From Clostridia bacterium (GTDB lineage Bacteria; UBA6262; WVXT01; JAUXBS01): a DNA stretch of 5,238 nt. Under the pieces are notes generated by a model. It saw nothing but the letters and a program-made list of their open reading frames with translations, did no database searches and was not told the DNA's origin. Location: contig JAUXDE010000111.1 in assembly GCA_030618495.1 (NCBI GenBank), forward strand, positions 1 through 5,238, read 5' to 3'. A program made the translations under genes and the position numbers. Shown one piece after another: positions 1,328 through 5,238 of the stretch. Each line of letters starts with the position of its first letter. Within the stretch, counting starts at the first letter, position 1.

Positions 1328-1972
1328 CTATGGTTCAACCTCACCCCACGTATTGAACACAGCCCTTACTTTTTCCCTGATGTTTTCCGCTTCGGTTATT
1401 TCTGTAACAAGGCTTATGCACCTGGCTCCGGCTTTTATGACTTCATTAATGTTGTGTTCCTTGATCCCGCCTATTGCCACAAACGGCAGGTTTATATTCT
1501 TTACTACGTAACTGATGTACCCCGTACCTACAGGACTGCAGACGCCTTCCTTGGTACGGGTTTCAAAGACAGGGCCTACCCCGATGTAATCGGCGCCCGC
1601 TTCAGCCGCCTCCCGGGCCTGGGCGGGGTTATGCGTGGAAACTCCGATAAACATGTCTTTTCCTATCAAACCGCGAACTTCTCTTAAGGGCAGGTCTTCC
1701 TGCCCTATGTGGACACCGTCCGCGTCCGTGAGCACCGCAAGGTCAACATCATCGTTCACTATGAAAAGAGCGTTATATTTTCTTGTAAGTTCCCGGATTA
1801 ATACGCATTCGTCGTACTTCACGCTCTTCACCCTGCGCTTTTCACGGTATTGAATAATTTTTATCCCCGCTTCAAGCATTTCCTCCACCACGTACCCGGT
1901 ACTCCTCCCCCTGCTGCGCTCAAAACAGGTGATACCGTAAACCTGGTGTTCAAAGAATTTCCTAAGGTCCAT
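1328..1972 (-). CDS. thiE: Thiamin phosphate synthase ThiE
   Basis: ThiE condenses 4-amino-5-hydroxymethyl-2-methylpyrimidine diphosphate with thiazole phosphate to give thiamin phosphate in the cytoplasm. The 214-residue product is the normal length for this TIM-barrel enzyme. Visible motifs, in order, are QYREK (41-45), which binds the pyrimidine and diphosphate; VNDDVDLA (72-79); DGVHIGQEDLP (85-95), with the Mg-binding Asp93; GVSTHN (110-115); ADYIGVGPVFETRTKE (127-142); and AIGGI near the C-terminus, which binds phosphate. Near the end CISLVTEI replaces the more common VAVVSAI-like strand, a conservative variation. The ATG at 1972 lies inside the last codons of thiH, giving an 11-base overlap, with AAGGA six bases upstream, so translation is probably coupled. 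No fused ThiD or ThiM domain is present. Confidence 0.97.
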   Translation of the reverse strand: MDLRKFFEHQVYGITCFERSRGRSTGYVVEEMLEAGIKIIQYREKRRVKSVKYDECVLIRELTRKYNALFIVNDDVDLAVLTDADGVHIGQEDLPLREVRGLIGKDMFIGVSTHNPAQAREAAEAGADYIGVGPVFETRTKEGVCSPVGTGYISYVVKNINLPFVAIGGIKEHNINEVIKAGARCISLVTEITEAENIREKVRAVFNTWGEVEP

Positions 1973-2975
1973 TCTTTATCCTTCTCCAGTCAGTGAAAAC
2001 AGGGTCAAAGTTTTTTGCCTTGAGTATGGAAACCACTTCCCTTACCGACCGCCTGTCCCTTACGTCAAACTGTGTGTCATTTTCGCCTGTACCCGTATAC
2101 CCGCCTACCGAAGTGCGCGATGCCGCGGAAATCCTCGTAACGCCGATTCCAAGGGCATGGTCACGCAGTTTTTCACCCTCCCTCGTGGACAGGTTTATCC
2201 CGACCCTGGGGAACAGTATGCGGGCAAGGCACATAAGCTTTATAAGCGTAAGGTCGGAAACGTTAATGGATTTGAACTTCGTCCCCGGTACGCTCAGTAT
2301 TCTCGGAAACGAGAGGCTGTATTCAACACCCGGATAATTCCTTTCCATGCAACTGAGGTGCTTGAATAGCTCATGGATATCCTCCGCCACGTCCCATAGT
2401 CCCAGAAGCGCCCCCATGGATATATTCCTTATGCCTGATTTTGCGATACGCTCCGGCGTCAGGTAGCGGTATTCATAGTCGCTCTTCTTCCCGGTAGGAT
2501 GGAGGTAACTGTAACGCTTTCTGTTATAGGTCTCCTGGTAAACGGTTACGCCGTCCACTCCCGACCTGTACAACTGCCTGTACTCGTCTTCTGTCATGGG
2601 ATACACTTCAAGGCTTATGCTCGGGAAGTACTCCCCTGCAACTTCAACGGCCTTTTTAATATATGACGGTGGAGTTTGTTTTCGCGAACCGCCGGTCAAC
2701 AGCAGTATATTCTGGATTCCCGCCCCGGAAACCCGCGCCATTTCCCCTGCCATTTCATCGAAAGTAAGTTTTTTCCTTTTTATCCTGAGCCCGTGTCTGA
2801 ACCCGCAGTAAAGACAGCCGTTATCGCAGTAATTGGAAAGGTATATGGGAGCGTAGAGCGAAATGGTCCTTCCGAAAAACCTGCTTGTAATAGTTTTTGC
2901 CTTTACAGCCAGGTCTTCTATTGCCTGGGGGTCTTCATCAGCCAGGATATCTTTTAATTCCGATAGGGTAATCAT
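1962..2975 (-). CDS. thiH: 2-iminoacetate synthase ThiH (radical SAM tyrosine lyase)
   Basis: ThiH cleaves tyrosine with S-adenosylmethionine to dehydroglycine (2-iminoacetate) and p-cresol, supplying the C2-N piece of the thiazole ring to ThiG. The 337-residue product has the radical-SAM cluster CDNGCLYC (Cys50, Cys54, Cys57; CxxxCxxC spacing) after YAPIYLSNY. Further family segments follow: LLLTGGSRKQTP (SAM-binding glycine-rich turn), EVYPM, VTVYQETYN, MGALLGLWD, SLSFPRI and ASRTSVGGY. The oxygen-sensitive ThiH route, rather than ThiO, points to anaerobic growth. It is shorter at the N-terminus than the roughly 377-residue E. coli enzyme. However, the start at 2975 forms an ATGA overlap with the thiG stop and the catalytic barrel appears complete. 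Only a weak purine-rich GAAGA precedes the ATG, which suggests coupling to thiG translation. Its 3' end overlaps thiE. Confidence 0.96.
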   Translation of the reverse strand: MITLSELKDILADEDPQAIEDLAVKAKTITSRFFGRTISLYAPIYLSNYCDNGCLYCGFRHGLRIKRKKLTFDEMAGEMARVSGAGIQNILLLTGGSRKQTPPSYIKKAVEVAGEYFPSISLEVYPMTEDEYRQLYRSGVDGVTVYQETYNRKRYSYLHPTGKKSDYEYRYLTPERIAKSGIRNISMGALLGLWDVAEDIHELFKHLSCMERNYPGVEYSLSFPRILSVPGTKFKSINVSDLTLIKLMCLARILFPRVGINLSTREGEKLRDHALGIGVTRISAASRTSVGGYTGTGENDTQFDVRDRRSVREVVSILKAKNFDPVFTDWRRIKNGP

Positions 2976-3757
2976 TTTTTATCTTCAAAAAGAAACCCCG
3001 TCAGAGGCGAGGACGCGCTTGCGGAATCCTTTTCCTCCCGGGGAGCGCCCAGGTAGGCCGTCCTGCCCGCCTGCACTGCAAGCGCAAACGCTTTTGCAAG
3101 GGCTTTCGGGTTCCCGGCGGTAGCCACCGCGGTATTCAAGAGCACCGCATCGGCTCCCATCTCCATGGATTCCGCCGCCTGTGAAGGAAACCCGAGCCCG
3201 GCGTCAACAACTACCGGCAGGTCAATCTCGTTAATTAATATTTTTATAAATTCCTTCGCCTTAAGCCCGCGGCTGCTTCCTATACAGGAACCAAGGGGCA
3301 TTACCGTAGCGGCGCCCGCCTTTACCAGTTCGCGTGCGGTGTAGAGATCCGGGGACATGTAAGGAAGAGCAACGAACCCTTCCTTTGACAGCATTTCCGT
3401 TGCCTTTACGGTTTCATGATTATCCGGAAGAAGGTACTTGCTGTCGTTTACAACCTCTACCTTGACCCAGTTCCCGTACCCCGATTCCCTGGCAATCCTG
3501 GCTATACGCAGAACCTCCCTGGCATTCCTTGCGCCCGAAGTATTTATCAATAAATTAACGTTCTTCGGTATATACTCAAGAATGTTTTCCTCGTGCCGTT
3601 TGAGGTCTATCCTCCTCAGAGCAACCGTCACCACCTCGGTGCCGCTTGCCTTTATGCAATCGGTTACATCCTTCTTGTTCCTGAACTTGCCCGTCCCGAG
3701 GAACAGGCGGCTCTTAATCTTTTTTCCATCGATGATAAGCGGCTTATCCTTTATCAT
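2972..3757 (-). CDS. thiG: Thiazole synthase ThiG
   Basis: ThiG builds the thiazole phosphate carboxylate from 1-deoxy-D-xylulose 5-phosphate, ThiS thiocarboxylate and the dehydroglycine made by ThiH. The 261-residue product has the normal length and shows LFLGTGKF (18-25), VVTVALRRID (42-51), NTSGARNA (72-79), WVKVEV with the expected Schiff-base Lys99, YLLPDN, MPLGSCIGS, the phosphate-binding VVVDAGLGFPS, GADAVLLNTAVA and AGRTAYLG. The ATG at 3757 directly abuts the thiS stop, and its ribosome binding site lies in the terminal glycine codons of thiS. It overlaps thiH by four bases. ThiG and ThiH commonly act as a complex, which fits this tight coupling. A Ser-rich tail (about 245-252) and a short acidic/basic end are unremarkable. 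Confidence 0.97.
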   Translation of the reverse strand: MIKDKPLIIDGKKIKSRLFLGTGKFRNKKDVTDCIKASGTEVVTVALRRIDLKRHEENILEYIPKNVNLLINTSGARNAREVLRIARIARESGYGNWVKVEVVNDSKYLLPDNHETVKATEMLSKEGFVALPYMSPDLYTARELVKAGAATVMPLGSCIGSSRGLKAKEFIKILINEIDLPVVVDAGLGFPSQAAESMEMGADAVLLNTAVATAGNPKALAKAFALAVQAGRTAYLGAPREEKDSASASSPLTGFLFEDKK

Positions 3758-3958
3758 TTATCCTCCACCCATGAAAGCGATTAACTCCAGCACATCGCCG
3801 TTCCTGAGGCGTTTTTTCTCCCACCTGTTTTTCCCTATAATAACCATGTTAAGTTCGGCAACAACACCGTCCGGATTATCACAGAACTTTCCAATCGCTT
3901 CCGTGAGGCTGATTGAATCAGGCAGTTCTTTTATATCACCGTTTACGGTTACCAACAT
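3758..3958 (-). CDS. thiS: Thiamin biosynthesis sulfur-carrier protein ThiS
   Basis: ThiS is a small beta-grasp (ubiquitin-like) protein. Its C-terminal glycine is adenylated, normally by ThiF, and converted to a thiocarboxylate that donates sulfur to ThiG. The 66-residue product begins MLVTVNGD, has the expected SLTEAI helix and GDVLELIAFMGGG ending, and finishes in Gly-Gly-Gly, so the essential Gly-Gly terminus is intact. The ATG at 3958 has AGGGAG six bases upstream. That site follows directly on the U-tract of the leader terminator, making this the first gene controlled by the riboswitch. No ThiF homologue is present in the window, so the adenylating partner must be encoded elsewhere (for example a ThiF/MoeB-like protein). 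Confidence 0.95.
   Translation of the reverse strand: MLVTVNGDIKELPDSISLTEAIGKFCDNPDGVVAELNMVIIGKNRWEKKRLRNGDVLELIAFMGGG
3761..3766 (-). promoter_or_regulatory. thiG ribosome binding site embedded in the thiS Gly codons
   Basis: The minus strand reads GGAGGA across the last two glycine codons of thiS, followed by the TAA stop and then immediately the thiG ATG. The spacing is short, three bases after GGAGGA, but the match to the anti-Shine-Dalgarno is strong. The same six bases therefore encode the catalytic Gly-Gly tail and position ribosomes for thiG. Confidence 0.75.
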
Positions 3959-3970
3959 TTATTGCTCCCT

Positions 3971-3999
3971 AAAATAAAAACCCCTGTTTCGCAGGGGTT
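3971..3999 (-). terminator. Intrinsic terminator of the TPP riboswitch
   Basis: On the minus strand AACCCCTG, loop CGAAA, CAGGGGTT form a perfect 8-bp hairpin, followed by TTTATTTT. It begins just after the aptamer and ends directly before the thiS ribosome binding site. It is the likely off-switch: TPP binding stabilises the aptamer and lets this hairpin form. Structure is seen directly; regulation is inferred. Confidence 0.88.
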
Positions 4000-4000
4000 G

Positions 4001-4100
<100 letters not shown>

Positions 4101-4132: not shown

Positions 4133-4276
4133 TAAATAAAAAGAAAAGGCATGGGAATAGGTAATATGAAATGGACATACCCGACTGGTTCCGGGACACA
4201 AGAAATGATGAAAATCAAGAATAGTCCTGCTGTGTAATTAAAACACCGAATGGAATGTTTTCTAACGTGATAAATA

Positions 4277-4471
4277 TTATTTTTTCCTAATTACTTTTAT
4301 ACCTAAATCTTTACAGAGTCCTCTCGCTGTAAATGTGTTTATTTCACGATGCCTGGGCACTGTTGCGGATTTTTCACTTTTTGGATTATAAAACAACGTA
4401 TGTTTTTTCCCTTCTCGTTCAAGGATACAGCCATTTTTTAGAAGATACTTTATTAATTCAGTTCGCTTCAT
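4277..4471 (-). CDS. hicA: HicA-type mRNA interferase toxin
   Basis: HicA toxins have a double-stranded-RNA-binding-like fold and cleave mRNA when freed from HicB. The 64-residue product has the family outline: an N-terminal helix KRTELIKYLLKNGC; GKKHTLFYNP (21-30), with the expected catalytic His24; VPRHREINTFTARG (38-51); and a closing KDLGI. Length is typical. Its ATG overlaps the hicB stop as ATGA, and no good ribosome binding site precedes it, so it is probably translated by coupling to hicB. That arrangement would keep toxin below antitoxin. It is strongly AT-rich compared with the thi genes, as expected for a mobile module. No terminator hairpin is visible after its stop. Confidence 0.92.
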   Translation of the reverse strand: MKRTELIKYLLKNGCILEREGKKHTLFYNPKSEKSATVPRHREINTFTARGLCKDLGIKVIRKK

Positions 4472-4683
4472 ATATTTACTGCAATTCTCTCTTCCAATAC
4501 TTTATTTTGTCCTTTAATAAAATGTTTATAATTCGAATCTAAAACCATTTTAACTGCTTCTTTTAAATTCTCCTTTACTTCTTTAACTGTTTTCCCCTGA
4601 GAATGGGCTCCCGGCAATTCTTTTACATAGCCAGCATACCATTTTTCACTTTTTACAACAACAATTGTATAATTAGTTACCAT
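4468..4683 (-). CDS. hicB: HicB-type antitoxin, short form
   Basis: HicB antitoxins fold like a partial RNase H and bind HicA to block it. The 71-residue product shows a first strand YTIVVVKSEKWYAGYV, the family signature ELPGAHSQGKT (22-32), and an amphipathic helix EVKENLKEAVKMVLD (35-49). It ends there with a short basic tail, so no ribbon-helix-helix or helix-turn-helix DNA-binding domain is present. It is the short, binding-only kind, and autoregulation would need another mechanism or protein. The gene precedes hicA, the reverse of the E. coli hicAB order, and overlaps it by four bases. The ATG at 4683 is fixed by a perfect AGGAGG seven bases upstream. Confidence 0.9.
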   Translation of the reverse strand: MVTNYTIVVVKSEKWYAGYVKELPGAHSQGKTVKEVKENLKEAVKMVLDSNYKHFIKGQNKVLEERIAVNI

Positions 4684-4768: not shown

Positions 4769-5071
4769 TTAACAAAAAGGGTTGCTTGTATCACTTGAAC
4801 AGTCACAGGTGGGCTCCGTGCCTCTCAATGCGCCATTTATAATACCGGCGGCGCATCCTACCCCGGAATCAACGCTTATTGCCTGCTCCGGACAGTTCAT
4901 GGCGCAGGCGCCGCATTCCATGCAGTCGTCCCTGTCAATAATCAACGCCTTCTTATCCCTTATCTCATAGACCGCATGGGGGCACACCTTAACGCACATG
5001 CCGCAGCCGCTGCACTTGGCTGTATCAAGCTTCAGGGTCACAACATTTTTTAAATATTGAAATCTTTTCAT
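4769..5071 (-). CDS. hgcB: HgcB, mercury-methylation [4Fe-4S] ferredoxin
   Basis: HgcB is the ferredoxin partner of HgcA and is thought to return its corrinoid to Co(I) and possibly handle Hg(II). The 100-residue product starts MKRFQYLKNVVTLKLD and holds two clusters: C20-C23-C26-C30 (CSGCGMCVKVCP) and C50-C53-C56-C60. The second contains the characteristic CMECGAC of HgcB. GVGCAAGII follows, with Cys73 at the position of the conserved non-cluster Cys73 reported as essential in HgcB of strain ND132. The C-terminus has RGTEPTCDC and a final lone Cys100, whereas ND132 HgcB ends in two adjacent cysteines. The ATG at 5071 is chosen over an upstream in-frame TTG because AGGA lies five bases before it and the protein then starts where HgcB proteins do. 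It follows the HgcA tail by seven bases. Related ferredoxins exist without hgcA, but the adjacency argues for true HgcB. Confidence 0.9.
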   Translation of the reverse strand: MKRFQYLKNVVTLKLDTAKCSGCGMCVKVCPHAVYEIRDKKALIIDRDDCMECGACAMNCPEQAISVDSGVGCAAGIINGALRGTEPTCDCSSDTSNPFC

Positions 5072-5076
5072 TTTAT

Positions 5077-5080
5077 TCCT
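5077..5080 (-). promoter_or_regulatory. Ribosome binding site of hgcB, overlapping the hgcA stop
   Basis: AGGA on the minus strand shares two bases with the hgcA TAG stop and stands five bases before the hgcB ATG. It decides in favour of that start and implies coupled translation of hgcA and hgcB. Confidence 0.65.
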
Positions 5081-5238
5081 ATATGAACTTATCAACTATT
5101 GCCAGAACTACTCCGGCAACAACCGCGGACAACTGCAGGGGAACCGCCGCGCGCATTTCCTTCCTTACCCCGGATAGTGACGTATATGTTGAAGCGCCCG
5201 TGAAGTTCATTAATATAAAGGAAGCCACGGAACCGAAT
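5079..5238 (-). CDS. hgcA: HgcA C-terminal membrane segment (partial; 5' part outside window)
   Basis: Reading inward from the window edge gives 52 residues and a TAG stop at 5081-5079. HgcA is a membrane-anchored corrinoid protein that transfers a methyl group to Hg(II). The visible tail has a hydrophobic start (FGSVASFIL), then MNFTGASTYTSLSGV followed by RKEMR, a conserved stretch of the HgcA membrane domain as I recall it. A last transmembrane helix (roughly AAVPLQLSAVVAGVVLAIV) ends in DKFI. These segments, plus the hgcB start seven bases downstream, make the call. The cobalamin-binding domain and its N(V/I)WCA(A/G)GK cap helix lie upstream, outside the window, so methylation capacity itself cannot be verified here. 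A different corrinoid membrane protein with the same tail is the main alternative. Confidence 0.85.
   Translation of the reverse strand, partial: FGSVASFILMNFTGASTYTSLSGVRKEMRAAVPLQLSAVVAGVVLAIVDKFI

Follow-up and report, generated by a model that had tools for sequence, protein, structure and literature searches.

An hgcA-hgcB gene pair at a contig edge in an uncultivated species from a very small phylum

The presence of hgcAB predicts methylmercury formation, and the patchy spread of these genes over phyla is an open question. Here, we ask whether the right edge of a short contig from a metagenome bin carries a genuine hgcA-hgcB pair, whether that pair belongs to the organism to which the bin is assigned, and how it compares with mercury-methylation systems already described. 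The window, by which we mean the whole stretch of DNA analysed, is the entire contig C136 (5238 bases) of genome G000, an assembly of 1.69 Mb in 179 contigs that is 98.1% complete with 0.4% contamination. We confirmed that its right edge holds all of hgcB and the final sixth of hgcA, and we put at roughly 90% the probability that this edge represents the 3' end of an hgcA-hgcB operon on the chromosome (Table 1). The pair is genuine and of a well-known kind, and it leaves the known mechanism unchanged. It adds an hgcAB species from a very small phylum, six species of which were examined, together with a comparison of its flanks with those of a congener that has no hgcAB at the matching sites.

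Table 1. Positions of the features discussed, numbered along the window.
Feature	Positions	Strand	Evidence
Thiamine operon thiS-thiG-thiH-thiE	1328-3958	-	Led by TPP riboswitch
TPP riboswitch, leader of thiSGHE	3995..4100	-	RF00059, 54.9 bits
hicA toxin gene	4277..4471	-	PF07927, 40 bits (cut-off 27)
hicB-like antitoxin gene, immediately after hgcB	4468..4683	-	Weak PF15919 and PF21748 matches, under curated cut-offs
hgcB, complete 100-aa dicluster [4Fe-4S] ferredoxin	4769..5071	-	NF040864 and 9 invariant cysteines
hgcA-hgcB gap, 7 nt, with AGGA Shine-Dalgarno-like stretch overlapping the hgcA stop	5072..5078	-	Sequence
hgcA, last 52 codons and stop (end of membrane domain), running off the contig	5079..5238	-	NF040863

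Identity of the two genes

The initial annotation had described a complete HgcB-like ferredoxin with two clusters, a CMECGAC motif, Cys73 in GVGCAA and an EPTCDC motif, and each of these elements was found in the sequence. The gene runs from an ATG at 5071 to a TAA stop at 4769-4771, and the two cluster motifs of its product (CxxCxxCxxxCP) comprise C20/C23/C26/C30-P31 and C50/C53/C56/C60-P61. EPTCDC supplies C89 and C91, and one more tail cysteine, C100, is the final residue. Selenocysteine at the end of hgcB was considered and is not indicated, the stop codon being TAA. The protein scores 129.3 bits (3.6e-38) against NF040864 (HgcB_ferredoxin), a curated equivalog profile with a cut-off of 99, which bears out the proposed identity. 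Across all six genomes examined from the phylum, the runner-up ferredoxin reached 44 bits with the HgcB model versus 128.6 for HgcB, and none of 14 control genomes had a match to the HgcB profile at 1e-25.

Directly before hgcB, and read in the same direction, lies the membrane tail that had been called typical of HgcA. It comprises exactly 52 residues, encoded in frame at 5082-5237 and closed by a TAG stop at 5079-5081, and it carries MNFTGASTYTSLSGV. The tail matches NF040863 (HgcA_corrinoid, likewise a curated equivalog profile) with 58.4 bits (6.2e-16) over about model positions 276-325 of 325; with no more than about one sixth of the gene (~16%) on the contig, the whole-protein cut-off of 275 bits is out of its reach. 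Together, the curated profiles, the adjacency and co-orientation of the genes and their nearest relatives support the pairing of hgcA with hgcB.

The relatives were taken as the best 80 HgcB loci from one scan of a named genome collection, with the window's own genome left out, and all 80 are HgcB genes, from many phyla. In 79 of these loci, hgcB is preceded by HgcA, either as a gene or as a fragment cut by the contig end; in the lone exception (L099), the sequence upstream of hgcB is just 138 nt long. The cap motif N(V/I)WCA(A/G)GK occurs in 75 of the 80, and three fragments stop short of it. One full-length HgcA, from 'bacterium isolate CSMAG_1171' (L132, 884-2065), carries a variant of the cap motif, NVWCDAGK in place of NVWCAAGK. 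In an alignment of the window's HgcB with its 80 relatives, cysteines 20, 23, 26, 30, 50, 53, 56, 60 and 73 are present in all 81 rows.

The missing part of hgcA and the flanks of the locus

The cap helix of HgcA and the greater part of its corrinoid and membrane domains lie outside the window and are absent from the G000 assembly. A search for the rest of hgcA across this genome returned only the tail on the window and a CdhD-like corrinoid protein on contig C132. The initial annotation had proposed that the cap helix and the five-helix membrane domain be sought upstream, and this was possible in part: a probable start of the gene, HgcA residues 1-136, was located in the bin of a congener, G001 (76% complete, 4% contamination), while the cap helix falls within an unassembled stretch of ~209 residues. 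Contig C192 of that bin ends in this HgcA N-terminus, which covers model positions 1-66, the start of the corrinoid domain, and has the gene order nifS-nifU-ptsP-hgcA(1-136), the first three names resting on a reading of the translations.

C192 (1-3883) probably derives from the window's own species and was placed in the wrong bin. We assign it so because it is 98.9% identical over 1.23 kb of nifS/nifU sequence to contig C30 of the window's genome, whereas G001's own nifS-nifU-ptsP, on C48, is 79-81% identical to C192 and its thi region is 72-76% identical to that of the window; true orthologues of the two species thus span 72-81%. We infer that the C192 fragment is the start of the same hgcA gene whose tail lies in the window, the two pieces having no overlapping sequence. 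Measured against full-length relatives, the gap between them has a median of 209 residues (~630 nt), cap helix included, and was found in neither the G000 nor the G001 bin. A linking piece of this length would be short enough to drop out at binning. On C30, in the region ~6933-7503 (L043), the contig leaves the sequence inside nifU for a foreign stretch of 66% GC that encodes, by eye, part of an FAD/phytoene-dehydrogenase-like protein. This end is a probable assembly chimera, which explains why the stretch from nifU to hgcA is absent from the window genome's bin.

Both flanks have counterparts in the congener. The thiS-thiG-thiH-thiE-apbE flank, with its TPP riboswitch, is syntenic with G001 contig C127, and the nifS-nifU-ptsP flank of the N-terminal fragment is syntenic with C48. 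ThiH is 2-iminoacetate synthase, of the anaerobic route. In G001 the two flanks lie at separate places, with a FeoB-like gene before the thi operon on C127 and a rubrerythrin-like gene after ptsP on C48, and hgcAB is absent from both of these matching sites. Similarity to C127 stops at window position 4135, so that the riboswitch sits near the edge of the common segment; the stretch from 4135 to hgcA, which contains hicAB and hgcAB, is specific to the species of the window. The hicA-hicB pair (4277-4683, minus strand) stands between the thi operon and hgcB and is absent at the congener's matching place. Farther left, between apbE and thiE, a small protein with a CxxCxxCC metal-chelating domain (PF03692) is encoded at 921-1277 on the minus strand, and the left edge itself (1-108, in apbE) overlaps positions 1-108 of G000 contig C55 with 93% identity, a pattern suggestive of strain variation where the contigs break. 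Judged by this synteny, the flanks of hgcAB are native to the genus.

Nativeness of both flanks implies that hgcAB is not contamination. The possibility that the contig was drawn from another organism in the sample has in its favour that the genome is a metagenome bin and that C30, in the same bin, has a chimeric end; it is nevertheless mostly excluded by the syntenic thiSGHE-apbE block on the contig itself and by the identity of ptsP-nifU-nifS, beside the N-terminal fragment, to the congener's C48. Similarly improbable is that the ferredoxin and the tail are parts of a non-methylating system, either a fused HgcAB-like protein or a corrinoid protein of the Wood-Ljungdahl pathway. HgcB does match the model for fused HgcAB-like proteins (NF043039), which have related corrinoid and ferredoxin parts, and the genome does encode the CdhD-like protein. 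Yet the match is of 59 bits, far below that model's cut-off of 285, while the HgcB model passes its own; the fused form is one protein, whereas the window has two genes parted by a stop codon; the sequences most similar to the HgcA tail all lie within HgcA genes; and the protein on C132 matches the corrinoid domain alone (HgcA model 29-155).

Somewhat less improbable, but still unlikely, is that hgcA is broken mid-gene by an insertion or deletion, with only hgcB intact and the organism unable to methylate mercury. Two assembly breaks do fall inside hgcA, and its middle part is in neither bin. Against this, neither HgcA fragment contains a stop, both being open, conserved and in frame; every conserved cysteine of HgcB is kept; and a linker of such a size would commonly be dropped at binning, in an assembly with faults elsewhere, such as the end of C30. 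In the reading that we favour, the unseen middle of hgcA would be whole.

Comparison with the enzyme of Pseudodesulfovibrio mercurii

The window resembles the system of P. mercurii ND132 in having hgcA and hgcB as separate, adjacent genes in that order; for HgcA, the comparison reaches only as far as the contig, the window's cap helix lying beyond its end. In ND132 HgcB, the cluster ligands are cysteines 20/23/26/60 and 50/53/56/30 (PMC7305189), and the window's HgcB shares this numbering for its cluster cysteines and for Cys73. Replacement of Cys73 by alanine abolished methylation in ND132 (PMC7305189). Both proteins have cysteines in the C-terminal tail; the ND132 tail, however, ends in a vicinal pair (C94-C95), whereas that of the window has three cysteines as C89-x-C91 and a single C100, with no vicinal CC. 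Such a pair is present in 70 of the 81 aligned proteins, and it is absent from 10 of the 80 relatives too. In ND132, the loss of one tail cysteine left activity unaffected and the loss of both lowered it by 95%, so that full activity requires one or the other (PMC7305189).

By homology, HgcA would be a corrinoid protein anchored by five membrane helices, with a cap-helix cysteine ligating cobalt, and HgcB its dicluster ferredoxin partner, the electrons of which would reduce the cobalt to Co(I). Cobalt would then accept a methyl group and hand it on to Hg(II), with Cys73 and the C-terminal cysteines of HgcB presumably handling Hg(II)/CH3Hg+. For the P. mercurii enzyme, S-adenosylmethionine was shown to be the methyl donor: it methylates the cobalamin, to which HgcA Cys93 contributes a cobalt-thiolate bond, and the methyl group is transferred to Hg afterwards (PMC11588087). 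A search of the PDB by sequence returned no solved structure of HgcA or HgcB, the nearest chains being the CFeSP large subunit and polyferredoxins. The visible sequence of the window contains no departure from the known HgcAB mechanism, and the gene content suggests that the organism is a potential mercury methylator.

Relatives, distribution and origin

HgcAB had been found in about 30 phyla by 2020, including Elusimicrobia, Firestonebacteria and WOR groups, and transfer of hgcAB between phyla has already been proposed (PMC7438021); WOR-1 was also included in the reference set of another study (PMC7573106). Among the best 80 relatives, the closest HgcB is that of Ca. Saganbacteria CG08 (L053; 76% identical to the window's), followed at 67-72% by WOR-1, Bacteroidota and 'Cloacimonadota' bins, among them WOR-1 RIFOXYB2 (L054; 67%) and the 'Ca. 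Cloacimonadota' E44 bin L058 (67%); a second E44 bin, L086, stands at 63%. The best matches of the HgcA tail are the HgcA proteins of these same E44 bins (69% for L058, 67% for L086). By record title, all four genomes belong to phyla other than that of the window. In an RpoB tree of 28 rows, the window's lineage groups with Elusimicrobiota (100% SH-aLRT), at a long distance and on a long branch, and away from Margulisbacteria.

On the HgcA tree, the two fragments were placed singly, since a composite of joined fragments collapses the query rows by construction. In the full-length tree, L086 was the nearest row for each fragment placed alone. In trees built on the fragments' own columns, the N-terminal fragment was again nearest L086; the C-terminal fragment combined with HgcB was nearest L053, a placement that had no support. 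AU tests on HgcAB kept a clade that joins it to the HgcAB of Elusimicrobia (p 0.81) and also one with Saganbacteria/WOR-1/Marinamargulisbacteria HgcAB (p 0.91). Horizontal transfer had been expected to emerge as a conflict between the RpoB and HgcAB trees; because the AU tests reject neither grouping, the HgcAB tree is too poorly resolved to prove transfer.

Within the phylum, hgcB is present in one of the six species examined, that of the window, and neither hgcA nor hgcB was found above cut-off in the four sister-family species. This distribution fits either a gain in the window's species or losses elsewhere, and the incomplete G001 may have an unassembled copy. Tentatively, and with the balance of probability somewhat against it, we suggest that hgcAB, perhaps with hicAB, was recently gained by this one species and inserted at a rearranged site. 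If true, the congener's intact ptsP-rubrerythrin and feoB-like-thiS loci would represent the state before acquisition, and the locus would offer a tractable case of the spread of hgcAB. The hicB-like neighbour itself probably lies outside hgcAB function; a second hicB-like match occurs elsewhere in the window's genome, on contig C13.
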